This document shows, piece after piece, positions 2,227-14,588 of a DNA stretch of 64,000 nt. Under the pieces are notes generated by a model. The model ran no database searches. It was given only the letters and a program-made list of their open reading frames with translations, and was not told the origin of the DNA. The stretch is taken from assembly GCF_020215645.1 (NCBI RefSeq), contig NZ_CP084058.1, positions 4,278,001 through 4,342,000 of the forward strand, given 5' to 3'. Position numbers and translations under genes: made by a program. Numbering within the stretch: position 1 is the first letter of the stretch; every line of letters starts with the position of its first letter. Source of the DNA: Nonomuraea gerenzanensis (GTDB lineage Bacteria > Actinomycetota > Actinomycetes > Streptosporangiales > Streptosporangiaceae).

Positions 2227-3171
2227 GTGGTCGAACAGGCGTCGGCCTGGGTGGAGTCCCCGCTCCAGATGCTGTGCGCCGTCGAGGCCCACCACGCCGG
2301 GCTTCTCGGCCCCGAGACGGCTGTCGTGCCACGGGCGGGCCTGCGGCCGCTGAAGGCCACGCGGCGCGAGCTGCGCTCGCTGGGACTGCCGGACGGGCTG
2401 GTGCTGGCCGAGCCGCGCGAGCGCATGCCCAGGCGCGTGCAGGCCGTGGGGGACGCCTTCTCCGGCAAGGTGCAGCTGCGCTGGCTCACCTCCCGGCCGG
2501 GCCGCATCGTCATCGTGGATGACGGGCTGGCCACGCTGCGGCTGCTCGAACTGCTCGCCGCGGGCCCGTACCGGCCGCTGCTGCGCGCCCGCGCCCACCC
2601 CACCAGGCTGCGCTCGGCGCTCGGCCTGGCGGCGGCGCTGCGGCTGCGGTACAGCAAGGTGTCGGTCTTCACCGCCCTGAGCGTGGACGACAAGCTGGCC
2701 GAGGCCGTCCGCCAGGCCGGCGTCGACCTCGTCCGCCACGACTTCGCCTGGCTGCGGGCCCAGCCGCCCAGCGCCCAGGGCCCGGCCGAGCGCACGGTCG
2801 TGCTCGGCACCTCCCTGGTCCGCAACGGCCTGGTGCACCGCGACCACTACCTGCGCTGGCTGACCGACCTCGCCGCGCGCGAGCCGCTGGCCTACTACCC
2901 GCACCGCCGCGAGGACCCCGTGGACGTCGCCCTGATCCGGGAGCGCCCCGGCATCACCGTCCACGACGCAGGCGTGCCCGCCGAGCTGACGCTGCGCGGC
3001 CTGGACCCGGGCCAGCGCGTGCTCAGCCTGCCCTCGACGGCGATCACCTCGCTGCGGGTGCTGCTCAGCCCGCGCGGCGTCGCCGTCGAGCCCGTGGACG
3101 TTCCCGATGACTGGTGGACCAGCAGGGCGGCCCCCGCCCTGCGATCGCATTTGACCGGAGTGTCCAGTTGA
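2227..3171 (+). CDS. Polysialyltransferase/GT52-like glycosyltransferase
   Basis: 314 residues, GTG start with GGGAGGG at 2213-2219. The N-terminus has an ESPLQMLCAVEA motif and the C-terminal half a YYPHRRE motif, both typical of the GT52/polysialyltransferase-like GT-B fold; IVIVDDG marks a Rossmann segment between them. Such enzymes add sialic acid-type sugars to surface glycans. Its stop codon overlaps the TTG start of the next gene (3168), indicating translational coupling. A TAGCTT -10-like box lies at 2176-2181. Exact donor and acceptor are unknown; the neighbouring CMP-nonulosonate synthesis fusion suggests a CMP-activated donor. Confidence 0.75.
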   Translation: MVEQASAWVESPLQMLCAVEAHHAGLLGPETAVVPRAGLRPLKATRRELRSLGLPDGLVLAEPRERMPRRVQAVGDAFSGKVQLRWLTSRPGRIVIVDDGLATLRLLELLAAGPYRPLLRARAHPTRLRSALGLAAALRLRYSKVSVFTALSVDDKLAEAVRQAGVDLVRHDFAWLRAQPPSAQGPAERTVVLGTSLVRNGLVHRDHYLRWLTDLAAREPLAYYPHRREDPVDVALIRERPGITVHDAGVPAELTLRGLDPGQRVLSLPSTAITSLRVLLSPRGVAVEPVDVPDDWWTSRAAPALRSHLTGVSS

Positions 3172-4340
3172 AAGTGTTGGCGGTCGCCGACTCCGACTCG
3201 TATCTGAAATGGGCGGCCTGCCTGCTCGGTGACCTGCCTCCGGGCTGCGTCACGGAGCTGGTCGTGGTGCGCACGCCGATCGCCCCGTCCCCGGAGCAGA
3301 TCGCGGCGGCGGTGAACGGCAGGGCGGCAGACCCGCCGCCGGTGCTGTCGGCGCGGTCCGTGCGGCGGCTGGCCGAGCGGACGCAGCCCGACGTGATCCT
3401 CGTGGCCTGCACGGGCCCCGTGGTGGACGTGCTGGTGGCCGAGGTGCTCGACGGGCTGCGCCCGCGGCCGGTCTTCGTCAGCGGGCTGCCCGGCATCTCG
3501 GTGCCTGCCACGGAGAAGGCGTGGATCTTCCGCAGCGGCTGCGACCTGTTCGTGGTGCACAGCGAGCGCGAGGTGGCCGAGTTCTCCCTGATCGCCGCCA
3601 GGCTCGGCGGGGGAGGGGCGGTGGGCCTGGCCCGGCTGCCGTTCCTGCGGCCCGAGCCGACCGCCGCGGGCGGCAACCGGGTCGTGTTCGCCACCCAGGC
3701 CAAGGTGCCCAGGGAGCGCGAGCAGCGCGAGCGGATCCTGCTGTCGCTGGCCGAGCTGGCAGGGCGGCGGCCCGACCTCGACGTGGTGGTCAAGCTGCGC
3801 GCCCTGGAGGACGAGCGGCAGACGCACAACGAGCGCTTCCACTACCAGCGGCTGTGGCGGGAGCTGGGCGAGCCGGGGCGGCTGCTGTTCGCGGCCGGCT
3901 CGATGCAGGAGCAGCTCCAGCAGGCGGCCGGGTTCGTGACGGTCAGCTCGACGGCGGCGCTGGAGGCCATCGCGATGGGCGTGCCGTCGCTGGTGCTGAG
4001 CGACTTCGGCGTGAGCGCCGAGATGATCAACCTGGTGTTCGAGGGCAGCGACCTGCTGGGCACTATGGACGAGCTGGCCGCGGGCGAGTTCCGTACCGCC
4101 TCGCCGGCCTGGTGCGCGGCCAACTACTTCCAGCCCGCCGAGGAGAACGACTGGGCGGGGCTGCTGGCCGGGCTGGTGGTCTCCCGGCCGCGGGTGCCCG
4201 CCACGTCGCTGCTCGACGGGCCGGAGCACGCGGCGGGGCGGCGCCGGGCCCGGCTCCGGGTGGAGGTGCCGCCCAAGATGTTGCGGGTGGGGTACCGGGC
4301 CAAGCGCCGCATGCGCCGCTACCTCAGATCGCTGACCTGA
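3168..4340 (+). CDS. Putative glycosyltransferase (DUF6716-like, GT-B type)
   Basis: 390 residues from the TTG at 3168, which overlaps the previous stop codon and has GGAG at 3157-3160. An in-frame upstream GTG/ATG would extend it into the preceding gene and is unlikely, because KVLAVADSDSYLKWA looks like a natural N-terminus. The C-terminal half has VTVSSTAALEAIAMGVPSL, the Ser/Thr-rich nucleotide-binding loop seen in polysialyltransferase-like and other GT-B enzymes. It ends in a basic tail. I recall similar uncharacterised actinobacterial proteins as DUF6716 putative glycosyltransferases; the assignment is from memory. Its 3' end overlaps the convergent gene at 4324 by 17 bp. Confidence 0.7.
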   Translation: MKVLAVADSDSYLKWAACLLGDLPPGCVTELVVVRTPIAPSPEQIAAAVNGRAADPPPVLSARSVRRLAERTQPDVILVACTGPVVDVLVAEVLDGLRPRPVFVSGLPGISVPATEKAWIFRSGCDLFVVHSEREVAEFSLIAARLGGGGAVGLARLPFLRPEPTAAGGNRVVFATQAKVPREREQRERILLSLAELAGRRPDLDVVVKLRALEDERQTHNERFHYQRLWRELGEPGRLLFAAGSMQEQLQQAAGFVTVSSTAALEAIAMGVPSLVLSDFGVSAEMINLVFEGSDLLGTMDELAAGEFRTASPAWCAANYFQPAEENDWAGLLAGLVVSRPRVPATSLLDGPEHAAGRRRARLRVEVPPKMLRVGYRAKRRMRRYLRSLT

Positions 4341-5562
4341 TCTTCCTGCGGATCCTGGAGAGCGCGCTGGGCTTGTCGGTGACGAAGCCCAGCGTCTCCA
4401 GGCGCTTGCGCTTGAAGTAGCGCCGGTCGAAGTCGATGCCGTCCGGCCGCAGGTCCGGGTAGGTCTCGGCCTGCATGCAGTAGCCGACGGCCCGCACCAG
4501 CGCCTGCAGGTCGGTGACCGGCGGGCGCTCGATCTGCCCCTCGGGCGACAGCCTGGGCAGCATCGCGTCCACGATGGTGGCCGGGATGCGGTTGCTGTTC
4601 TCGTACGGGGTCAGCCGCTCCAGCACCAGGTCCGTGCCGTAGGAGGCCACCTGCAGCCCGAAGTAGCGCTGCGCGGTCACCAGCCCCGTGGAGAAGCAGC
4701 CCACCACCAGCTCGGGCCGCAGCGCCGCGAAGCACACCTCGGCGGGCACGCTCTCGCCCGCCACCGACAGCCGCACCCCTAACGGCCCGGCGGCGGCGCG
4801 CAGCAGCTGGGCGTGCCGGCGCCCGGCGGCCGGGTGCGGCTTGAACACGACGTCGGTCAGGCCGCGGGCGACCAGGGCCTTCAGCATGGTCTCGTGCAGC
4901 CCGGCCTCCTCCTCCGGCGTGAGCAGCTCCAGCGCCGACAGGTACTGGCCGAGGATGATCGCCTGCCCGGCCATCATGTCGGGCGCGGTGGCGGTGACGT
5001 CGTGCACGATCGACAGGAACCGCTCGTCGGGCAGGATCTCGGGGGCGACGCCGTACTCGCTGAGCAGGAGCGGCTTCAGCCCCGGCACCAGGTCGAGGTG
5101 GAGCAGCCGGCCGATGCGGCGGAAGATCTCCGCGGGCAGCGGGTCGCGGGTCGGGCCGTAGCTCATCAGCCCGTCGGAGTAGACCGTGATGGGGCAGTCG
5201 CGCACCAGGCCCGCGATCGTCCGCGCGGGCGGCACCGCGATCGACTCCAGCACCAGCTCCTCGACCCCGTCCAGGCCCCAGTGGGAGCGGATGAGCCGCT
5301 CCATCATGGGCACCTCGATGACGCGGGCCCGCCAGTCGGACGGGTGCAGCGGCGCGATCAGCTCGTTCCACGAGTGCACCTCGTCGAAGCGGGAGCGCAG
5401 CGCGGCGAAGCCGGGCGTCCTGTCCAGCGGCGCCGACACCTCGGGGATGGCCGCGTTGTTCGAGACGATCAGGACGCGACGGCCGGCGCCGAAGCGGCCC
5501 TCGTCGATGGCGGCCGCCAGCGACATCGCCCCGAACAACGTCGAGGCGTAGAAGACCTTCAC
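4324..5562 (-). CDS. Alpha-2,8-polysialyltransferase-family protein
   Basis: 412 residues from GTG at 5562, two bases after the stop of the upstream glycosyltransferase. The N-terminus KVFYASTLFGAMSLAAAI and the later VVFKPHPAAG (HP motif) and VVGCFSTGLVTA (Ser/Thr motif) match the bacterial polysialyltransferase family, where the His-Pro motif binds the CMP donor. Family members polymerise sialic acids for capsules; in actinobacteria homologues are linked to Kdn-containing teichulosonic acids of the wall. A longer in-frame extension to 5985 would overlap the upstream gene almost fully and has shadow-like composition, so it was rejected. Product linkage cannot be predicted. Confidence 0.8.
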   Translation of the reverse strand: MKVFYASTLFGAMSLAAAIDEGRFGAGRRVLIVSNNAAIPEVSAPLDRTPGFAALRSRFDEVHSWNELIAPLHPSDWRARVIEVPMMERLIRSHWGLDGVEELVLESIAVPPARTIAGLVRDCPITVYSDGLMSYGPTRDPLPAEIFRRIGRLLHLDLVPGLKPLLLSEYGVAPEILPDERFLSIVHDVTATAPDMMAGQAIILGQYLSALELLTPEEEAGLHETMLKALVARGLTDVVFKPHPAAGRRHAQLLRAAAGPLGVRLSVAGESVPAEVCFAALRPELVVGCFSTGLVTAQRYFGLQVASYGTDLVLERLTPYENSNRIPATIVDAMLPRLSPEGQIERPPVTDLQALVRAVGYCMQAETYPDLRPDGIDFDRRYFKRKRLETLGFVTDKPSALSRIRRKIRSAI

Positions 5563-5564
5563 CT

Positions 5565-6545
5565 TTAGGACTCCTCCCGGTCGCGGCGGACCCGGACGTG
5601 CGGGCTGGGGGGCAGATCGGGCACCAGGGCCCGCAGGATGGCCTCGCGTTCGACGGACATCCGCGACACCGACTCGGCCACCAGCTCCGGCGGCAGCGCC
5701 CGCACCATCTGCGCGCCGCGCGCCTCGAAACGGGAGCGCAGCGCCGGCGTGAGCCGGTCGCCGATCTCCAGGTGGTGGGCGAGCAGCGCGCAGAAGTTCC
5801 GCGCGGCCTTGGGCAGGAACTCCGGCTCCAGGTCCTTGAAGACCAGCTCGAACGCGTCGAAGAAGTGCAGCTGGCGCTCGTCGCCCACCTGCGTCAGCGA
5901 CCCCGACACCATGCGCCGGTAGAACACCCCGGCCAGCGACGCCACCGCGAACGTGGCGGCCTCCCTGTGCAGCCGCCAGATCCACGGCCGGTCCTCGGCG
6001 GTGTGCAGGGAGCCGGGGAAGTGCAGCAGGTCGCCCAGCGAGCGCTTGTAGACGCCGGCCCAGGCGTAGGGGTAGTCCACCATCGTGCGCACGTTGGCCG
6101 GCAGGATGGCCTCGCGGGGGGCGAGCACCGAGCCCCGTCGCGCCAGCGGGGCCCGGTGCACGACCCGTTTGCGCCCTTCCACCTGCACGTGGTCGACGCG
6201 CACGAAATCGCAGCCGAGGCCGTCGATCGCCTCGACGAGCCGTGCCAGGTAGCCGGGCGCCAGCCAGTCGTCGCCGTCCATGAACGTGACGTACCGGCCG
6301 GTCGCGGCCGACAGGCCCGTGTTGCGCGCGTCCGCCAGCCCCACCGGAGCGGGGTTGCGGATCACGACCAGCCCGGGCAGCTCACCGATGAAGTCGTCGA
6401 TGATGTCGCCCGTGGCGTCCACGGACCCGTCGTTCACGATGATGAACTCGAAGTCGCCGCGCGCGTTGCGGGACAGCGAGGTGAGCGCGTCGGCGATGAA
6501 GCGCTCGCCGTCCCTGATGGGCACGACGACCGAGAGCGTGATCAA
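5565..6545 (-). CDS. Family 2 glycosyltransferase
   Basis: 326 residues. A GT-A domain starts at once with LSVVVPIRDGERFI, followed by FIIVNDGSVDATGDIID and the metal/nucleotide-binding FMDGDDW. The start is a TTG at 6545 with AGGAAG about 11 bases upstream. It lies 29 bp behind the nonulosonate-synthesis fusion and 2 bp before the polysialyltransferase, so the three form one operon. It probably builds the primer or acceptor sugar to which the polymer is attached, acting at the cytoplasmic face of the membrane. That role is inferred from context only. Confidence 0.85.
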   Translation of the reverse strand: MITLSVVVPIRDGERFIADALTSLSRNARGDFEFIIVNDGSVDATGDIIDDFIGELPGLVVIRNPAPVGLADARNTGLSAATGRYVTFMDGDDWLAPGYLARLVEAIDGLGCDFVRVDHVQVEGRKRVVHRAPLARRGSVLAPREAILPANVRTMVDYPYAWAGVYKRSLGDLLHFPGSLHTAEDRPWIWRLHREAATFAVASLAGVFYRRMVSGSLTQVGDERQLHFFDAFELVFKDLEPEFLPKAARNFCALLAHHLEIGDRLTPALRSRFEARGAQMVRALPPELVAESVSRMSVEREAILRALVPDLPPSPHVRVRRDREES

Positions 6546-6574: not shown

Positions 6575-8617
6575 TCAGACGGTCACGCGCCGAAGGCGGG
6601 CCTTCGGCGCCTCCTCACCGGGGAAGACCCGCTTGACGCCGTCGCCCATGGCCTGCTCGATGATGCGGATGTCGCGCACGAGGTGCTCCAGGCCCGACGG
6701 CTCCAGCGAGGCGGCGTGGTCGGAGCCCCACATGGTGCGGTCGAGGGTGATGTGCCGCTCCACGGTCACCGCGCCGAGCGTGACCGCGGCCAGCGAGATC
6801 TGCAGGCCGCGCTCGTGGCCGGAGTAGCCGACCGGGACGCCGTAGCGCTCCTTGAGCGTGGTGATCGTCCGCAGGTTCGCCTCCTCGGGCGGCAGCGGGT
6901 ACGTGGACGTGGCGTGCATCATGATCAGCTTGTCGGTGCCGAGGATCTCCACGGCGGCGTCGATCTCCGACAGCGTGGACATGCCGGTGGACAGGATGAT
7001 CGGCTTGCCGGTCGCGGCCAGCGCGCGCAGCAGCTCGTGGTCGGCCACGCTGGCCGAGGCCACCTTGTGCACCAGGACGTTCATGTCCTCCAGGAACTCC
7101 ACCGACGGCACGTCCCACGGCGAGGCGAACCAGTGCAGCCCGCGCTCGTCGCAGTACTTGGCGATCTGGGTGTACTCGTCGCGGCCGAACTCGGTGCGCT
7201 CCTTGTACTCCAGGTACGTCATCTCGCCCCACGGCGTCTGCCGGATCTGCCCCTTCTGCTCCTCGGGCACGCAGATCGCGGGGGTGCGCTTCTGGAACTT
7301 GACCGCCTGGCAGCCGGCCTCGGCGGCCACGTCGATGAGCTGCCTGGCCAGGTCGATGTCGCCGTTGTGGTTGATGCCGATCTCGCCGATGACGTACACC
7401 GGCTCGCCGTCGCCGACCAGCACGTCCCCGATCGCCACCGGGGCGAAGTGCGGCCGGGTGCGCACCGCGACAGGGGCGGGCTCCGGCGCCGGCCGGGCGG
7501 CCACCACCCGGTCGCACAGCTCGCGCACCGCGCCGGACCCGCCGGCGCTGGACAGCACCACCCGGGCGGCGGCGCGCACCCGCGGGTGGGCGTCGGGGGT
7601 GGCGACGGGCCAGCCGACCTCGCCCATCGGGCCCAGGTCGTTGACGTCGTTGCCGACGTAGGCGACGCGGGCCGGGTCCAGGCCCTCGATCCGCAGCCAG
7701 TCGGCCAGCACGGTGCGCTTGTCGGCCAGGCCCTGCAGCACGGGCACGCCGAGCTTGCGGGCGCGGGCGGCCACCACCGGGTTCTGCTCGGTGGACATGA
7801 TCAGCACCTTCACGCCGGAGCGCTTCAGCAGCGAGACGCCCATCCCGTCGGAGCGGCTGACCAGCACCATCTCGCGGCCGTCGGAGTCGACGTAGGCGCG
7901 GTCGTCGGTGTGCACGCCGTCGAAGTCGGTGATGACGGCGTCCACGTCGATCGGCTCGGGCTGGTCGATGAACGGGGCGAGCGCTCGCACGAGCTCCAGG
8001 TCCTCCGGGTTGTCGATCTCGATGGCGTGCTTGGTGGGCACCGGCTGGACGGCGATCTCGCCGAAGAAGCGGTGGCCGTGCTCGCGCAGGCCGGCGGTGC
8101 GCATGACGTAGAAGGCGCCGTTCTCGCGGAACTCGGGCGCGCGGTCCTGGCGGCGCTGCCGGACGGCCGGGTCGTGGTTGACGCCGGCGCCGGTGGCCGT
8201 CCAGAGGAACTCGTGGGTGGGCAGCCCGGACACGACCGAGTCGGCCTCGCCGTCGAGCACCTTGCGCACCGCCGCCGACAGGTCGCCGGGGTCGATGAAC
8301 GCACTGGTCGCCTGGACGAGCACGACGACCTCGGGGTCCTCGCCCAGGGCGTCGAGCGCGTGCAGCACCGCCGACTCGCTGGAGGCGGTCGCGCCGCTCA
8401 GCTCGGCCGGGCGCTGCACCACGGTCGCGCCCGCCTGCCTGGCGGTCTCGGCGATCCCGTCGTGGTCGGTGCTGACCACGACCTGGTCCACCAGCTCGGC
8501 GCGCAGGCAGGCGCGCACCGCGCGGGTGACCAACGGGACGCCCCCGACCAGGGCGAGGTTCTTCAGGGGTACGCCCGCCGAACCTCCGCGGGCGGGAACA
8601 ACGGCCAGGACTCGCAA
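6575..8617 (-). CDS. Trifunctional nonulosonic acid enzyme: CMP-sialate synthetase / HAD phosphatase / sialate synthase
   Basis: 680 residues from TTG at 8617, preceded by GAGGAGA. Residues 1-215 form a NeuA-type cytidylyltransferase (VVPARGGS, then VLVQATSAF). Residues 224-375 form a KdsC-like HAD phosphatase with DFD at 231-233 and GNDVNDL at 323-329. Residues 395-680 form NeuB synthase (EIGINHNGD, HATSTYP, GYSGHERG), condensing PEP with a mannose- or ManNAc-type sugar. Together they cover condensation, 9-phosphate removal and CMP activation. The protein stops at the linker where other NeuB enzymes continue into an antifreeze-like SAF domain, so that domain is missing. First gene of a three-gene operon; a TAGCTT -10-like box lies upstream on this strand. 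Neu5Ac versus Kdn cannot be decided. Confidence 0.92.
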   Translation of the reverse strand: MRVLAVVPARGGSAGVPLKNLALVGGVPLVTRAVRACLRAELVDQVVVSTDHDGIAETARQAGATVVQRPAELSGATASSESAVLHALDALGEDPEVVVLVQATSAFIDPGDLSAAVRKVLDGEADSVVSGLPTHEFLWTATGAGVNHDPAVRQRRQDRAPEFRENGAFYVMRTAGLREHGHRFFGEIAVQPVPTKHAIEIDNPEDLELVRALAPFIDQPEPIDVDAVITDFDGVHTDDRAYVDSDGREMVLVSRSDGMGVSLLKRSGVKVLIMSTEQNPVVAARARKLGVPVLQGLADKRTVLADWLRIEGLDPARVAYVGNDVNDLGPMGEVGWPVATPDAHPRVRAAARVVLSSAGGSGAVRELCDRVVAARPAPEPAPVAVRTRPHFAPVAIGDVLVGDGEPVYVIGEIGINHNGDIDLARQLIDVAAEAGCQAVKFQKRTPAICVPEEQKGQIRQTPWGEMTYLEYKERTEFGRDEYTQIAKYCDERGLHWFASPWDVPSVEFLEDMNVLVHKVASASVADHELLRALAATGKPIILSTGMSTLSEIDAAVEILGTDKLIMMHATSTYPLPPEEANLRTITTLKERYGVPVGYSGHERGLQISLAAVTLGAVTVERHITLDRTMWGSDHAASLEPSGLEHLVRDIRIIEQAMGDGVKRVFPGEEAPKARLRRVTV

Positions 8618-8690
8618 GGTGTGTCTCCTCAGTGCATCGGATTGCACCCAGAAGCTAGAGGGCCGGATTGAACGGCCAGCGTCACCACCA

Positions 8691-9368
8691 TTAACTTTCC
8701 ATGGGGATCCGGTAGAGCAACTCTGGCCGGCCCACCCCGCCGTACTGCGGGATGCGGGCCGCCACACCCAGCTCGACCAGGTATTCCAGGTACCTGCGTG
8801 CCGTCACGCGAGACACTCCGATCGCGTCGGCCACGGCCTGCGCGCCCATCCCCTCCGGGCGCTCACGCAACCTCGACACCACGGTGTCCAGAGTGTCGCG
8901 GGCCATGCCTTTCGGCAGCTCCGAGGGACCGCGCAGGGTGCCGAGCACCCGATCCACGTCGCCCTGCCCCACCGCGAGGCCCGCCTCCTCCTTGAACCGG
9001 GCGTAACGCGTCAGCTTCTCCGCCAGTGTCGCGAACGTGAACGGCTTGAGCAGGTACTGCGAGACTCCGAGCGACACCGCTGAACGGACCATGGCCAGAT
9101 CGCGAGCGGAGGTGACCGCGATCACGTCGCACATGAGGCCGCCCGCCCGCACCGCGCGGCACACGTCCAGGCCGTGCATGTCGGGCAGGTAGAGGTCGAG
9201 CAGGATGAGGTCCACCTGCTGGTCCACGGGCCGCCCGCGTAGGAAGCGCAGCGCCTCCGCGCCCGACCTGGCCACCCCGGCGACCTGGAAGCCGGGCACC
9301 CGCTCGACGTAGATGCGGTTCGCCTCGGCGGTGATCTCCTCGTCCTCCACCACCAGCACGGAGATCAT
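8691..9368 (-). CDS. CitB/DcuR-family response regulator
   Basis: 225 residues. The receiver domain has acidic E8/D9, phosphoacceptor D58 (LLDLYLPD) and K108 (LLKPF). The C-terminal half has a winged-helix segment (VADAIGVSRVTARRYLEYL) typical of CitB/DctR/MalR regulators of C4-dicarboxylate or citrate genes. Its ATG overlaps the stop codon of the sensor kinase (ATGA), showing tight coupling. Expected target is the divergent dctA at 10955. Ends 73 bp before the TTG of the nonulosonate fusion; a GGCCG / CGGCC hairpin in that gap may separate the units. Confidence 0.9.
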   Translation of the reverse strand: MISVLVVEDEEITAEANRIYVERVPGFQVAGVARSGAEALRFLRGRPVDQQVDLILLDLYLPDMHGLDVCRAVRAGGLMCDVIAVTSARDLAMVRSAVSLGVSQYLLKPFTFATLAEKLTRYARFKEEAGLAVGQGDVDRVLGTLRGPSELPKGMARDTLDTVVSRLRERPEGMGAQAVADAIGVSRVTARRYLEYLVELGVAARIPQYGGVGRPELLYRIPMES

Positions 9369-10846
9369 GGCCGCGGCAGCCTCACCGTGAACGCCGAGCC
9401 CTCGACCTCGATCGTGCCGCGCAGCCGCCGCACCGCCTGCCCCACCAGCGCCAGGCCCAGCCCGCGCCCGTCGCCCTTGGTGGTCCAGCCCTTGTCGAAG
9501 ACGTCCTCGCCCGCCGGGCCTGGCCCGTTGTCGGACACCCTGATCAGCACCTGCCCCGCGCCCCCGCTCAGGTGCACCTCCACCCGGGTGGCCGCGTCGA
9601 TCGCGTTGTCGATCAGGTTGCCCACGATCGTGACCAGCTCGCGGGCGTCCAGGCCGAGGTCGTCCAGCTCGCTGTCCTGGCTGATCACCAGCTCGGCGCC
9701 GCGCTCGGCCGCCTCGGCGCTCTTGCCCAGCAGCAGCGCCGCCAGCACCGGCTCGCGCACCGCGCCCACGACCCGGTCGGTCAGCTCCTGCGCGGCCCGC
9801 AGCTCCGCGGTGCCCAGCGCCACCGCCTGCTCGGTGCGGCCCAGCTCCACCAGCGTGATGACCGTGTGCAGCCGGTTGGCGGCCTCGTGCGCGGCCGAGC
9901 GCAGCGACTCGGCGAAGCCGCGCTCGGCGTCGAGCTGGCCCGTCAGCGCCTGCAGCTCGGTGTGGTCGCGCACGGTGACGACCGTGCCGAGCCTGCTGGC
10001 CGCGCTGTTGACGGCCAGCACGCGGTCGCCGACCAGGTGGATGCGCTCCTCGTCGGCGGCCAGCACCGCCTCCAGGCCCAGCTCCCGCACGTGCCGGCCC
10101 TCGGCGTCGGCGGGCAGGCCGAGCAGCAGCCGGGCGGCGTCGTTGCAGAGCGTCAGCGTGCCGTCCTGGCCGACCAGCAGCAGGCCCTCCCTGACGGCGT
10201 GCAGGACCGCGTCGTGGTGGGCGTGGATGCGGCCCAGCTCCACCGGGCCCAGGCCGTGCGTCTGGCGGCGCAGCCGCGCGGTCACCAGCCACGTGCCCGC
10301 CGCGCCCAGCCCGAGCGCCAGCGCCACGATGAGGCCGCCCCAGGCGAGCTGGTCGCGCAGCCTGGCGCTGATCCTGTCGATCGTGATCCCCGCGCTGACC
10401 AGCGCCCGCACCCGGCCGCCGGCCATGACCGGCGTCACCGCCCGCTTGGAGGCGCCCAGCGTGCCGGTGTAGGTCTCGGTGAACGTCTCGCCGCGCAGCG
10501 CCGGCTCGATGTGGCCGAGGAAGCGCTTGCCGATCTCGGCCTCGTTCGGATGGGTGTAGCGGGTGCCGTCCGGCTTCATGATCGTGATGAAATCGACCCC
10601 CGTCGCCGCCCGTGCCCGCTGCGCGTACGGCTGCAGCCGCGCCGTCGGGTCCCGCTCGTCCAGCGCCTCCAGCACGTCGGGGGAGGCCGCCACGCTGACC
10701 GCCACCGCCGTGGCCGTGGCCCCCGCCTCCTCCTGGAGCAGCTCGTGGGCCTGCAGCAGGGCCAGCAGCGCGCCGCCCGCCGCCGTGACGGCGACGACGA
10801 GCAGCTGCAGGACCAGCATCTGCCCTGCCAGGCTCCAGCGGCGCAT
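9365..10846 (-). CDS. CitA/DcuS-family sensor histidine kinase
   Basis: 493 residues from ATG at 10846, chosen because GGAGGGG lies six bases upstream; an earlier ATG (10861) overlaps that site. Order: TM1 about 10-32, extracytoplasmic sCache-like sensor about 35-165 (YTHPNEAEIGKRF motif), TM2 about 171-190, cytoplasmic PAS about 205-300, SpoOB-type dimerisation helix with H320 in SAAHEAANRLH, and an HATPase domain (NLIDNAIDAA, DNGPG, GRGLGLALV). The H-box form is specific to CitA/DcuS. It probably senses an external C4-dicarboxylate and phosphorylates the regulator at 8691. Confidence 0.92.
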   Translation of the reverse strand: MRRWSLAGQMLVLQLLVVAVTAAGGALLALLQAHELLQEEAGATATAVAVSVAASPDVLEALDERDPTARLQPYAQRARAATGVDFITIMKPDGTRYTHPNEAEIGKRFLGHIEPALRGETFTETYTGTLGASKRAVTPVMAGGRVRALVSAGITIDRISARLRDQLAWGGLIVALALGLGAAGTWLVTARLRRQTHGLGPVELGRIHAHHDAVLHAVREGLLLVGQDGTLTLCNDAARLLLGLPADAEGRHVRELGLEAVLAADEERIHLVGDRVLAVNSAASRLGTVVTVRDHTELQALTGQLDAERGFAESLRSAAHEAANRLHTVITLVELGRTEQAVALGTAELRAAQELTDRVVGAVREPVLAALLLGKSAEAAERGAELVISQDSELDDLGLDARELVTIVGNLIDNAIDAATRVEVHLSGGAGQVLIRVSDNGPGPAGEDVFDKGWTTKGDGRGLGLALVGQAVRRLRGTIEVEGSAFTVRLPRP

Positions 10847-10954
10847 CGGATTCCCCTCCATGTACGAAACTTACGCAATGGTGACCTGCATCACTCGTGA
10901 GGCGCATAGTCGCACGACGAGAAGGTCCCTCGAAAACCGCCGGAGAACCCCCCT

Positions 10955-12310
10955 ATGCGCGATCGCACCCGCTATCTATACCTGGCCGTCATCGTGGCGG
11001 TCCTGCTCGGCATCCTGGTCGGCTTCATCTGGCCGGACGTGGGCAAGGAGCTCAAACCCCTCGGCACCGGCTTCGTGGCGCTGATCCAGATGGTGATCGG
11101 CCCCATCATCTTCTGCACGATCGTGCTCGGCATCGGCTCCGTACGCCAGGCGGCCCAGGTCGGCAAGGTCGGCGGGCTGGCCCTCGGCTACTTCATCGCC
11201 ATGTCCACGGTCGCCCTGGTCATCGGCCTGATCGTGGGCAACGTCATCGACCCGGGCTCGGGGCTGCAGCTCACCGACACGGCCAGGCAGGCCGCCGAGG
11301 CGGAGGCGGCCAAGGGCGCCGACGCCAGCACCGTGGACTTCCTGCTCGGCATCATCCCCGAGACGGTCGTCTCGGCGCTCACCGACGGCTCGGTGCTGCA
11401 GGCCCTGCTGGTCGCCCTGCTCACCGGCTTCGCGCTGCAGGCCATGGGCCCCAAGGGCGCGCCGATCCTGCGCGGCGTGGAGCACTTCCAGCGGCTCGTG
11501 TTCCGCATCCTCGCCATGATCATGTGGGCGGCGCCGGTGGGCGCGTTCGGCGCGATCGCGGCCGTCGTGGGCGCCACCGGCATCGAGGCGCTCAAGAGCC
11601 TGGCCATCATCATGATCGCCTTCTACGTGACGTGCGTGCTGTTCGTCGGCGTGGTGCTCGGCGCGATCCTGTGGCTGGTGGCCCGGATCAACCTGTGGTC
11701 GCTGCTGCGCTACCTCGGCCGCGAGTTCCTGCTCATCCTGTCCACCTCCTCCTCGGAGACCGCCCTGCCGCGGCTCATCGCGAAGATGGAGCACCTGGGC
11801 GTGAGCAAGACCGTGGCCGGCATCACCGTGCCGACCGGCTACTCCTTCAACCTCGACGGCACCGCGATCTACCTGACCATGGCCACGCTGTTCATCGCCA
11901 CGGCCACCGGCTCGCCGCTGGAGTTCGGGGAGCAGGTCGCGCTGCTGCTGTTCATGATGATCGCCTCCAAGGGCGCCGCCGGCGTCACCGGCGCGGGCCT
12001 GGCCACGCTGGCCGGCGGCCTGCAGGCGCACCGGCCCGAGCTGGTGGACGGGGTGGGCCTCATCGTGGGCATCGACCGCTTCATGTCCGAGGCGCGGGCG
12101 CTGACCAACTTCGCCGGCAACGCCGTGGCCACCGTGCTCGTCGGCACCTGGACCGGGGAGTTCGACCGGGAACGGGCGGAGCGGGTGCTGGCGGGGCAGG
12201 CGCCGTTCGACGAGGCCACGCTGCTGGACGACGACGACGCGGACGTGCCAGCCGGGCGGGACGGGCGGGACGAGCCTCGCGAGCCCGCCAAGGAGATGTC
12301 CCCGGCCTAA
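10955..12310 (+). CDS. dctA: Dicarboxylate:cation symporter (DctA type, DAACS family)
   Basis: 451 residues with the hallmarks of the glutamate/dicarboxylate symporter family: TSSSETALPRL in the HP1 loop, NLDGTAIY (the NMDGT-type cation motif), and GIDRFMSEARALTNFAGN near the C-terminus. It imports succinate, fumarate or malate with protons or sodium across the inner membrane. GGAG sits nine bases before the ATG. It is divergent from the CitA/CitB-type kinase pair across 108 bp, the usual arrangement for a transporter controlled by such a system. The acidic C-terminal tail (LDDDDAD...) is not conserved. Confidence 0.93.
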   Translation: MRDRTRYLYLAVIVAVLLGILVGFIWPDVGKELKPLGTGFVALIQMVIGPIIFCTIVLGIGSVRQAAQVGKVGGLALGYFIAMSTVALVIGLIVGNVIDPGSGLQLTDTARQAAEAEAAKGADASTVDFLLGIIPETVVSALTDGSVLQALLVALLTGFALQAMGPKGAPILRGVEHFQRLVFRILAMIMWAAPVGAFGAIAAVVGATGIEALKSLAIIMIAFYVTCVLFVGVVLGAILWLVARINLWSLLRYLGREFLLILSTSSSETALPRLIAKMEHLGVSKTVAGITVPTGYSFNLDGTAIYLTMATLFIATATGSPLEFGEQVALLLFMMIASKGAAGVTGAGLATLAGGLQAHRPELVDGVGLIVGIDRFMSEARALTNFAGNAVATVLVGTWTGEFDRERAERVLAGQAPFDEATLLDDDDADVPAGRDGRDEPREPAKEMSPA

Positions 12311-12320
12311 CGTCCAGCGG

Positions 12321-12353
12321 GCGGCGGGGAGGGCTCAGAGGCCTCCCCGCCGC
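12321..12353. terminator. Bidirectional intrinsic terminator
   Basis: A perfect 12-bp inverted repeat (GCGGCGGGGAGG at 12321-12332, CCTCCCCGCCGC at 12342-12353) with a 9-base loop lies between the convergent dctA (ends 12310) and the methyltransferase (ends 12387). There is no U-tract, as is common in high-GC actinobacteria. Confidence 0.8.
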
Positions 12354-12386
12354 TCTCCGGCGTGCGCCTCCCCGCCGGTGCCGGCG

Positions 12387-13226
12387 TCAGGGCTTGCGGC
12401 CGATCCCCGCGTACGCCATCCGCGCCAGGTCCTCGTCCACGAAGACCGGGTTGAGCGGGTCGTGGAACGGCCAGACCTGGTGGTCGGGCAGCCCCGTGGC
12501 CAGCCCGGGCGGGATCAGCTCGAAGTCGCCGAAGAAGGCCGCGATCTCGGTGCCCGCCCGGGGCGTGAAGTCGGCGTTGGCCTTGCGGTAGAACTCGCTG
12601 ACCTGCGCCGCCCGCTCCGTGGCCACGTCGTTGGTGACGTGCGAGATCGCCAGGTAGCTGCCGGGCGCGAGCGCGTCGCGGTAGGCGGCCATGAACCGCT
12701 GCGGCTCGTCCTGCTCGGTGATGAAGTGCAGGACGAACATCATCAGCACGGCCACCGGCCGGTCGAAGTCGATCAGGCCGCGCACCTCGGGGTCGGACAG
12801 GATCTCCTCCGGCCTGCGGCAGTCGCCCAGCACCATCGCCACCCGGTTCGGGTCGGCCAGCAGCGCCCTGCCGTGCGTGGCCACCACCGGGTCGTTGTCC
12901 ACGTACACCACCCTGGCCTCGGGTGCGTGGCGCAGCGCCACCTCGTGCACGTTCTCCTGCGCCGGCAGGCCGGAGCCCAGGTCGAGGAACTGGGTGACGC
13001 CCTGCCGGCAGAGGTACTGCACCACCCGGCCGATCAGCGCGCGGTTCTCCCTGGTGCCGTCGCGGACCTCGGGCATCACGCTCAGCACCATGTCACCGAG
13101 CTCCCGGTCGGCCTTGAAGTTGTCCTTGCCGCCGAGGAAGTAGTCATACATCCGCGCCGCGTTGGGGATGTGGGGGTTCACGCCCTGCGGCGCCTGCTCC
13201 GTCATGAAACCATGATCCACGACCAT
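12387..13226 (-). CDS. SAM-dependent methyltransferase, SAV2177/DUF574 family
   Basis: 279 residues. The N-terminus has the family signature NPHIPNAARMYDYFLGGKDNF, split here as NPHIPNAARMYDYFLGG plus KDNF; then QFLDLGSGLP (SAM-binding motif I) and VVYVDNDP (motif II). This actinobacterial family is strongly expanded in Streptomyces and Streptosporangiaceae; its substrates are unknown. A second ATG 21 bases downstream (13205) is an equally plausible start, because neither has a clear Shine-Dalgarno site. It lies 12 bp downstream of an orphan sensor kinase on the same strand. Confidence 0.87.
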   Translation of the reverse strand: MVVDHGFMTEQAPQGVNPHIPNAARMYDYFLGGKDNFKADRELGDMVLSVMPEVRDGTRENRALIGRVVQYLCRQGVTQFLDLGSGLPAQENVHEVALRHAPEARVVYVDNDPVVATHGRALLADPNRVAMVLGDCRRPEEILSDPEVRGLIDFDRPVAVLMMFVLHFITEQDEPQRFMAAYRDALAPGSYLAISHVTNDVATERAAQVSEFYRKANADFTPRAGTEIAAFFGDFELIPPGLATGLPDHQVWPFHDPLNPVFVDEDLARMAYAGIGRKP

Positions 13227-13238
13227 GGTTCCGGAAAT

Positions 13239-14588
13239 CTACTCGAACGCCATCGGAAGCCGCAGAACGAACCGGGCGCCGCCTGGGCAGTCCTCCACGC
13301 GGATCTCGCCGCGGTGCGCCATGGCCACATCGCGCGCGATGGCCAGGCCGAGGCCCGTGCCGCCCGCGTCGCGGCTGCGGGCGGCGTCGAGGCGGGTGAA
13401 GCGCTCGAAGATGCGCTCGCGGTCGCACTCGGCGATCTCCATGCCGTCGTTCTCGACCGCCAGCACCGCCGTGTCCGGCTCCTGCCTGCGGACGGTGACC
13501 TTCACGCTGTGCTCGGCGTGCCGCTGGGCGTTGTCCACCAGGTTCGTCAGGACCCTGGCGAGCTGCAGCCGCACGGCCTCCACCACGACCCCCTCGGCCA
13601 GCTCCACCCGCACGGGCAGCTTGTCGCTGCGGACGGCGAGCTCCTTGCGCACCAGGTCGGCCAGGTCGACGCGCTCCTTGACGACGTCCACCCGGGAGCC
13701 GATCCTGGCCAGCAGCAGCAGGTCGGTGATGATCGCCTCCAGCCGGTCGGTGTCGCGCAGCGCGCTGCGCACCAGCGCCTCCATGTCGGTGTCGTCCGGG
13801 TAGAGCTGGGCGCTCTCCAGCTGGGCGCGCAGCCCGGCGATCGGGGTGCGCAGCTCGTGGGAGGCGTCGGAGGCGAACTGGCGCTGCTGCTCGGCGGAGC
13901 GTTCCAGGCGGGTCAGCGTGCTGTTGACCGAGCGGGCCAGCTCGGCCACCTCGTCGTCGCCGGGCGGCTGCGTGACGCGGTGGCTGAGGTCGCCGGCGTG
14001 CACGGCGTCCAGCTCGGCCCGCATGGTCGCCACCGGCCGCAGCGCCCGGCCGGTGACCAGCCACGTCGCCCACGCCGTCACCCCGATGAGCAGGCCGACC
14101 TCGGCGAACACGATGACCTCGAGCGTCCTGCTGGACAGCACCTCCGGGGAGCTGCGGCCCGCGTAGACGACGGGGGAGTCGGTGAACATGCTGACCCGCA
14201 CCGCCGTCAGGTGCACGCACTCGGTCGGCAGGCAGCTGGTGGTGCTGACGACCCGGTTCCTGGCCGTCGGGCGCACGTCGCTGAGCGGCGGCAGGTTCCT
14301 GGCGGCGTCGCTCGTGGCCAGGATCCGCCCGTCGGGCCCCACCACCTGGATCAGGTCCACCGTCGGGTGCGGCACCGGGATGGCGGCGCCCATGGGCAGG
14401 GCGCCGCCGCGCATCTCGTAGGCGACCCGCTCGGCGGTGTCCCTGGTCTCGCTGAACACGGCGGCGGTGATCACCGACCTGGTCACCAGGACTCCGGCGA
14501 TGCCCACGGGGATGAGCACGAGGGCGGCTACGGCCGTCGCGATGAGGGTGACGCGTCCCCGCAGGGACCTGGCCCACCAGGGTGCCAT
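13239..14588 (-). CDS. Orphan HAMP-type sensor histidine kinase
   Basis: 449 residues: TM1 about 12-36, an extracytoplasmic sensor about 37-152, TM2 about 155-178, HAMP about 180-232, HisKA with H244 in FASDASHELRTPI, and HATPase_c (NLVDNAQRHA, GGTGLGLAI). The sensor carries two close cysteines (C119 and C124 in SCLPTEC), which could form a disulfide or bind a ligand. No response regulator is next to it, so its partner is unknown. The downstream methyltransferase on the same strand may be in the same transcript. Confidence 0.9.
   Translation of the reverse strand: MAPWWARSLRGRVTLIATAVAALVLIPVGIAGVLVTRSVITAAVFSETRDTAERVAYEMRGGALPMGAAIPVPHPTVDLIQVVGPDGRILATSDAARNLPPLSDVRPTARNRVVSTTSCLPTECVHLTAVRVSMFTDSPVVYAGRSSPEVLSSRTLEVIVFAEVGLLIGVTAWATWLVTGRALRPVATMRAELDAVHAGDLSHRVTQPPGDDEVAELARSVNSTLTRLERSAEQQRQFASDASHELRTPIAGLRAQLESAQLYPDDTDMEALVRSALRDTDRLEAIITDLLLLARIGSRVDVVKERVDLADLVRKELAVRSDKLPVRVELAEGVVVEAVRLQLARVLTNLVDNAQRHAEHSVKVTVRRQEPDTAVLAVENDGMEIAECDRERIFERFTRLDAARSRDAGGTGLGLAIARDVAMAHRGEIRVEDCPGGARFVLRLPMAFE

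Follow-up and report, generated by a model that had tools for sequence, protein, structure and literature searches.

A single-frame NeuA-HAD-NeuB protein in Nonomuraea gerenzanensis with a synthase that belongs to a clade without SAF domain

How can the synthase part of a three-domain protein work without the SAF domain that normally follows it, and why are the three parts joined in an order opposite to that of the reactions they would catalyze? These questions are raised by a gene in a stretch of 64,000 nucleotides from Nonomuraea gerenzanensis (contig NZ_CP084058.1, positions 4,278,001 to 4,342,000; hereafter the window). From the letters of this stretch alone, the original prediction had read the gene as a fusion of a cytidine monophosphate (CMP)-nonulosonic acid synthetase (NeuA), a HAD phosphatase and a nonulosonic acid synthase (NeuB), with NeuB ending at the linker that usually leads to SAF.

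The gene is a single frame on the minus strand of the window, running from a TTG at 8617 to a TGA at 6577-6575, with 680 codons for amino acids and no internal stop. Pfam and NCBIfam matches fall within this one frame in the order NeuA, HAD, NeuB, just as predicted, and it is confirmed that the three-domain protein is real and conserved in relatives far beyond chance. In a protein search with 8000 candidates scored, all of the at least 120 matches listed are full-length relatives with at least 81% identity. Structure prediction, proposed as a check together with the original prediction, gives the 680-residue protein a predicted local distance difference test (pLDDT) score of 93.4. Of the 22 relatives shown, 21 have TTG or GTG at the aligned start position, behind a GGAG-type ribosome site; the remaining one (L077) is shown off its start.

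When 249 genomes drawn from the order are surveyed by reading the rows of a list of the strongest matches, at least 134 have a match, and in 102 the domains are fused, 97 times without interruption and five times as two pieces of one frame. Of the matched genomes without fusion, seven have one in-frame stop, eight have two adjacent genes and two have the parts on two contigs; at least 15 of the 249 have weaker matches alone. Conservation in 102 genomes rules out a sequencing artefact or a frameshift, the latter being a doubt attached to the prediction from the outset. Of 568 confirmed stretches, the best 80 are the genome loci kept; 78 of these have the same single frame as the window, and in the other two (Thermobifida fusca and Actinorugispora endophytica) NeuA-HAD and NeuB are in-frame neighbours with one stop between them. 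In a survey of 396 genomes of the phylum, 89 have any match and the sole uninterrupted full-length match is the window's own genome; in most of the stronger loci fetched there, NeuA-HAD and NeuB lie side by side in frames of their own.

To see where the fusion comes from, consider the 142 loci that are classified as fused (108) or split (34), 20 of which duplicate others. The domains were concatenated for 71 chosen loci, 37 of the fused and all of the split ones, and in the resulting tree, rooted at the midpoint, the fused loci form one clade (support 84) within the split ones, beside a Thermobifida-like group with support 100 for the pair. All 34 split loci, two of them duplicates, have an in-frame ATG before NeuB, and in 30 it is accompanied by a ribosome site. 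Among 90 distinct fused genes, such an ATG occurs in three and an ATG with ribosome site in none, while six have a ribosome-like site before a GTG or TTG; an internal NeuB start that is kept in the fused genes is thus unlikely. The linker that joins the parts is 14-42 residues long in the 108 fused loci, and 42% of its residues in the 90 distinct genes are proline or alanine (757 of 1791). As read from this tree, the fusion is derived from an adjacent pair of NeuA-HAD and NeuB genes, and it probably has a single origin. Since the fused clade lies among split loci with the same gene order, the order NeuA-HAD-NeuB is that of an old operon rather than a deliberate inversion of the reaction sequence. 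The order that was originally pointed out stands, and it recurs in the homologues, but there is no need for a special reason behind it.

In seven genomes of the order (L151-L157; also L077 and L080), NeuA-HAD and NeuB share one frame with a single stop, which is TAG in six and TGA in one. All six TAG loci are members of the Thermobifida-like group, and in them the stop codon falls within the ribosome site that serves the NeuB ATG (AAAGGATAGGTA; some loci deviate from it by one or two bases). In L160, a close relative, an insertion of two bases at the stop region disrupts the common frame. Because the TAG is part of the NeuB ribosome site and the frame is broken by the insertion in L160, separate initiation of NeuB is a simpler explanation for these split relatives than stop-codon read-through.

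Pfam NeuB (PF03102) matches residues 427-662 with an E-value of 1e-83 and 281 bits against a cut-off of 22.1, covering all model positions (1-241 of 241). The frame stops 18 residues later, at KARLRRVTV, where SAF-bearing synthases continue with an RRSL-like motif, so that the domain does end at the linker normally leading to SAF. Pfam and NCBIfam find no SAF in the 680-residue protein, and the canonical architecture of a barrel plus SAF with Arg314 is absent. Nor does a frame with SAF follow downstream of 6575, a possibility left with the prediction; the next gene there encodes a GT2 glycosyltransferase. In the VIA-align structure comparison (best 50 entries), the tail matches the Neisseria meningitidis enzyme (NmeNeuB) up to residue 294, a stretch that holds Phe288 and precedes the remainder of SAF. 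The equivalog models for NnaB (TIGR03569) and PseI (TIGR03586) are matched under their cut-offs, with scores that the missing SAF itself lowers: NnaB reaches 270.5 of the 399.65 bits required, over positions 1-278 of its 329, and PseI 214.7 of 340.25 bits, over positions 2-262 of its 327.

The absence of SAF, which was originally noted for this one protein, is correct, but it is no peculiarity of it. In a midpoint-rooted tree of 46 NeuB sequences, 33 SAF-less actinobacterial NeuB proteins form one clade (support 84), which joins two SAF-bearing relatives, L109 and L110, with support 100. In these two, the open frame continues beyond the barrel match for 353 and 359 residues, corresponding to SAF and about 280 more. 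Outside the window's order, the clade is mostly unfused. Among the at least 120 matches listed to a Streptomyces-like NeuB, most are 302-320 residues long, and none has SAF among its precomputed Pfam domains. Judged from the trees, loss of SAF predates the fusion and is characteristic of a NeuB clade of actinobacteria that includes Streptomyces.

Twelve core residues, taken as the PEP- and metal-binding set (E25, K53, Q55, K129, S132, S154, Y186, S213, H215, E234, H236 and D247 in NmeNeuB numbers; PEP, phosphoenolpyruvate), agree with NmeNeuB and do not vary among the 33 SAF-less sequences of the tree; K53, S132, S154, H236 and D247 have catalytic roles. Glu134 is Glu or Asp in all nine SAF-bearing sequences and Ser in 27 of the 33 SAF-less ones. 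In an alignment of 63 chosen rows, which also gives the NeuA and HAD residue counts below, the signature loop has R444, T445, P462, W463 and G464 in 35 of 35 SAF-less rows, K443 and R459 in 34, and M466, T467 and Y468 in 33. In the nine SAF-bearing rows, Arg is found at the position of R444 in two and the remainder varies. The end of the loop is absent in two deep SAF-less members (L106 and L107), and its KR is already present in the SAF-bearing L109. In the tail, L675 and R676 occur in 34 of 35 SAF-less rows.

Compared with NmeNeuB (1xuu), the window's NeuB has neither SAF nor Arg314, has Ser for Glu134 and differs in the loop that follows strand 2. The available part of PMC6795526 lists 13 site residues, of which seven are identical, four further ones differ (Asn74, Thr110, Phe112 and Asn184), and Phe288 and Arg314 are outside the aligned part. 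According to the same partial text, Arg314 is the sole residue of the SAF domain that acts directly at the site, where it positions the N-acetyl group of N-acetylmannosamine (ManNAc); R314A is inactive and R314K active (PMC6795526). The Leptospira borgpetersenii protein 6ncs is SAF-less too, but its lack of the signature loop, its Asp at 134 and its place outside the actinobacterial clade (own support 55) suggest a separate loss.

The NeuA domain is matched by Pfam CTP_transf_3 (PF02348) over residues 5-212 (1.8e-23, 84 bits), with R10 and K19 present in 33 of 33 aligned rows and Q102 and D202 in 32. We take R10 and K19 as equivalents of the nucleotide-binding Arg12 and Lys21 named for CMP-nonulosonic acid synthetase in the accessible part of PMC2901514. 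The best sequence match in the PDB, with 36-37% identity, is PpNeuA of Prymnesium parvum (9t4z), a synthetase for CMP-Kdn, where Kdn is 2-keto-3-deoxy-D-glycero-D-galacto-nononic acid. Like the window's NeuA, PpNeuA has no Lys in the GSKG motif; it is unlike it in being a separate algal protein, with a 251-residue chain too short for HAD or NeuB. The GSKG position (residue 14, window 8576-8578) is Ala, Val or Thr (55, 34 and 1) in all 90 distinct fused proteins and Lys in 28 of 32 split ones, with two Gln, one Arg and one protein without the motif. By these counts, loss of the GSKG Lys accompanies the fusion.

At 23.9 bits, the HAD domain stays under the Pfam cut-off of 26.4, but it is clearly recognized by the NCBIfam models for KdsC (3.5e-29) and Kdn 9-phosphate (Kdn-9-P) phosphatase (1.8e-24), in both cases under the equivalog cut-off; for the latter (NF058599) the score is 86.7 bits against 180. 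The Kdn pathway of Bacteroides thetaiotaomicron, with its Kdn-9-P phosphatase 3e81, differs in consisting of separate proteins. The motifs of C0-type HAD phosphatases, which we take to be DxD, Ser/Thr, Lys and GNDxxD, are complete in D231, D233, S275, K300, D324 and D327; each of these residues, and T237 likewise, is missing from at most one of 29 rows.

The coordinates of the gene's parts and of its neighbours are collected in Table 1. The PF07388 gene is the genome's only match to that family, and ORF2227 has no Pfam or NCBIfam match. All six cluster genes have relatives in two of three distant loci tested, both Streptomyces-like, meaning that one genome has a NeuB with 98% identity to a Streptomyces protein and that the other shares its genus label; the third locus has relatives of NeuA-HAD, NeuB and DUF6716 only. 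Of the 90 distinct fused genes, 88 have a GTTCA in the 150 bases that precede the NeuA match, a count from relatives that are not independent and without shuffled control, and the motif is suggestive of PhoP control of the operon. On the far side of the operon (window 8691-14588), the genes, judged by eye with no family search, encode a response regulator, two sensor kinases, a DctA-like carrier and a methyltransferase; having relatives in only 18 to 52 of the 80 loci, they are placed outside the module.

Table 1. Features of the fusion gene and its cluster, in window coordinates. Counts out of 80 refer to a relative anywhere in the locus; adjacency was seen among 15 loci.
Feature	Position	Strand	Basis
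NeuA domain, CMP-nonulosonic acid synthetase; residues 1-215	7973..8617	-	Pfam, PDB match, conserved residues
HAD domain, C0-type phosphatase of KdsC / Kdn-9-P phosphatase kind; residues 222-376	7490..7954	-	NCBIfam, 3mmz
Linker; residues 377-392	7442..7489	-	Predicted disordered at 379-386 (pLDDT <50)
NeuB domain, nonulosonic acid (phosphate) synthase barrel without SAF; residues 393-662	6632..7441	-	
Signature loop QKRTPxIxxP...RxTPWGxMTYxxY of SAF-less clade; residues 442-471	7205..7294	-	Alignment
C-terminal tail; residues 663-680; helix 666-675; LRR motif; ends at SAF's usual start	6578..6631	-	
GAGGAG ribosome site serving the TTG start	8625..8630	-	Sequence; similar sites in relatives
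GTTCA, possible PhoP half-site	8669..8673	-	Putative role
GT2 glycosyltransferase, next operon gene	5565..6545	-	Pfam; relative in 79/80 loci
PF07388 (alpha-2,8-polysialyltransferase family) gene, start uncertain	4324..5556	-	Pfam 3e-25; relative in 79/80 loci
DUF6716 putative glycosyltransferase	3114..4340	+	Pfam 5.9e-133; relative in 70/80 loci
ORF2227, uncharacterised cluster gene	2227..3171	+	Relative in 62/80 loci and both Streptomyces-like loci tested

Which sugar would such a protein make? Its substrates and activities being putative, the protein is most likely a trifunctional enzyme for CMP-Kdn, a reading to which we give a probability of about 0.6. NeuB would join mannose 6-phosphate (Man-6-P) and PEP to Kdn-9-P, HAD would take off the phosphate to leave Kdn, and NeuA would convert Kdn and cytidine triphosphate (CTP) to CMP-Kdn, from which the adjoining GT2 and PF07388 transferases would build a teichulosonic acid-type wall polymer that contains no phosphate. 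In favour of Kdn are the CMP-Kdn synthetase as best PDB sequence match of NeuA, the gene set shared with the Streptomyces-like loci and the Kdn reported for the teichulosonic polymer. The clade would dispense with Arg314 because C2 of its substrate would carry a hydroxyl and not an N-acetyl group; since Arg314 places the N-acetyl group, which is absent in Kdn, SAF may be dispensable. In 3-deoxy-D-manno-octulosonic acid (Kdo) 8-phosphate synthase, it is the loop following strand 2 that holds the sugar phosphate. The near-invariant loop with K443, R444 and R459 would similarly bind the 6-phosphate, perhaps with assistance from the LRR tail; for R444, R459 and R676, these are roles that we infer. 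Two observations weigh against the CMP-Kdn pathway: the HAD domain matches the model for Kdo-8-P phosphatase better than that for Kdn-9-P phosphatase, and a HAD relative is not found in the Streptomyces-like genome G352, where NeuA and NeuB persist. That genome has two copies of the locus (L171 9331-11334 and L172 7482-10556), and in one of them NeuA and NeuB share an open frame of 668 residues, an apparent independent fusion in which an internal start is possible.

The alternative that survives best, itself unlikely, keeps the fusion and the cluster and changes the product to N-acetylneuraminic acid (Neu5Ac), made from ManNAc-6-P and PEP through Neu5Ac-9-P and activated to CMP-Neu5Ac. Source names such as N-acetylneuraminate synthase, the naming of PF07388 after polysialyltransferases and the presence in the genome of one gene of the UDP-GlcNAc (uridine diphosphate N-acetylglucosamine) 2-epimerase family are in its favour, and CMP-Neu5Ac synthetases, the next-best PDB matches of NeuA, are tied with PpNeuA by fold in VIA-align. 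However, Glu134 and Arg314 are gone, the NnaB score is far under its cut-off, though lowered by the missing SAF, no epimerase gene is found among the seven window genes searched around the fusion gene, and a related Streptomyces polymer is reported, in what is available of PMC7831098, to hold Kdn.

It is improbable, too, that HAD has a structural role and that the synthase takes an unphosphorylated hexose. The model here is the vertebrate CMP-sialic acid synthetase, in which NeuA is likewise followed by a C0 HAD domain (1qwj and the murine HAD domain 3ewi are matched), NeuB is lacking and the HAD domain is inactive, and the persistence of NeuA and NeuB without HAD in G352 agrees with such a role. 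In the window protein the HAD motifs are complete and conserved in all or nearly all rows, the domain has 52-56% identity to Streptomyces avermitilis 3mmz and 28-36% to the listed Kdo-8-P phosphatases, and the near-invariant basic residues of the clade's loop also speak for a phosphorylated substrate.

Production of another nonulosonic acid, legionaminic, pseudaminic or different, is very unlikely. NeuB does group with PseI and not with NmeNeuB (support 98 in the midpoint-rooted tree), but the PseI score is low, again lowered by the missing SAF, and neither dehydratase nor aminotransferase occurs among the seven window genes searched. Genes of both kinds, Polysacc_synt_2 and DegT, are instead found near a separate, SAF-bearing NeuB 3.27 Mb away (G000 C1:1015828-1017240; L118 7829-9241), likely a locus of pseudaminic or legionaminic acid type. 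Because the separate NeuB has this neighbourhood, the cell probably uses its two synthases for different sugars. The genome has one more NeuB match, a weak one (4.6e-7), at C1:3719284. That a SAF domain of another protein completes the site in trans, as the original prediction allowed and as the capping of the other monomer by the SAF-like domain of NmeNeuB could suggest (PMC6795526, from its available part), is hardly credible when the 12.07-Mb genome has just two SAF matches, both far from the locus, one in the separate NeuB and one in a 197-residue protein that is CpaB-like by eye, with no family search made.

A wider scenario around the CMP-Kdn reading is put forward tentatively. The SAF-less clade would be a separate class of phosphosugar nonulosonate synthases, which lost SAF, Arg314 and Glu134, gained a basic loop (K443-R444-T445 ... 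R459-x-T-P-W-G) for binding the 6-phosphate like that of Kdo-8-P synthase, and has its site capped by the LRR tail instead of SAF. In Streptosporangiaceae it would then have been welded to the phosphatase and the CMP-transferase, perhaps around a HAD tetramer, so that Kdn-9-P and Kdn could be passed between sites.

The Streptomyces-like loci are alike in having NeuA-HAD beside a SAF-less NeuB together with relatives of GT2, PF07388, DUF6716 and ORF2227, and we infer that this gene set corresponds to SCO4873-SCO4882 of Streptomyces coelicolor. These are given, in the parts of the papers at hand, as teichulosonic acid genes under PhoP (PMC13011467), with the region also listed under phosphate starvation, with SCO4881 named NeuB (PMC2367054) and with a teichulosonic polymer of galactose and Kdn (PMC7831098, PMC11481543). 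SCO4880 and SCO4881, the putative counterparts, are two genes, compared with one in the window. In Planobispora rosea, a sialic acid synthase (EV45_RS38880) and its neighbours are reported as Pho-activated; the available portion of PMC8269224 lists the synthase as counterpart of SCO4880, has no separate row for SCO4881 and calls the genes putative teichuronic acid genes without mention there of a three-domain protein. The single row would fit a fusion, and the locus of Planobispora takensis (L048) is fused. In a literature search thin on subscription papers, no description of a NeuA-HAD-NeuB fusion or of a SAF-less actinobacterial NeuB was recognised.

What is real, then, is a set of known enzymes in a conserved fused form, built on a synthase clade without SAF. 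If active, the fusion would allow CMP-Kdn to be made from Man-6-P, PEP and CTP with one gene, which would be of use in chemo-enzymatic synthesis. The question of SAF becomes sharper than it was for one protein, because a whole clade appears to work without the domain, and a natural clade that has lost Arg314 and kept the twelve core residues offers a test of SAF as selector of N-acyl sugars versus SAF as part of the catalytic machinery. For Planobispora rosea, the comparison suggests that the Pho-activated wall genes described as teichuronic acid genes in the available text of PMC8269224 may instead build a nonulosonic acid polymer.
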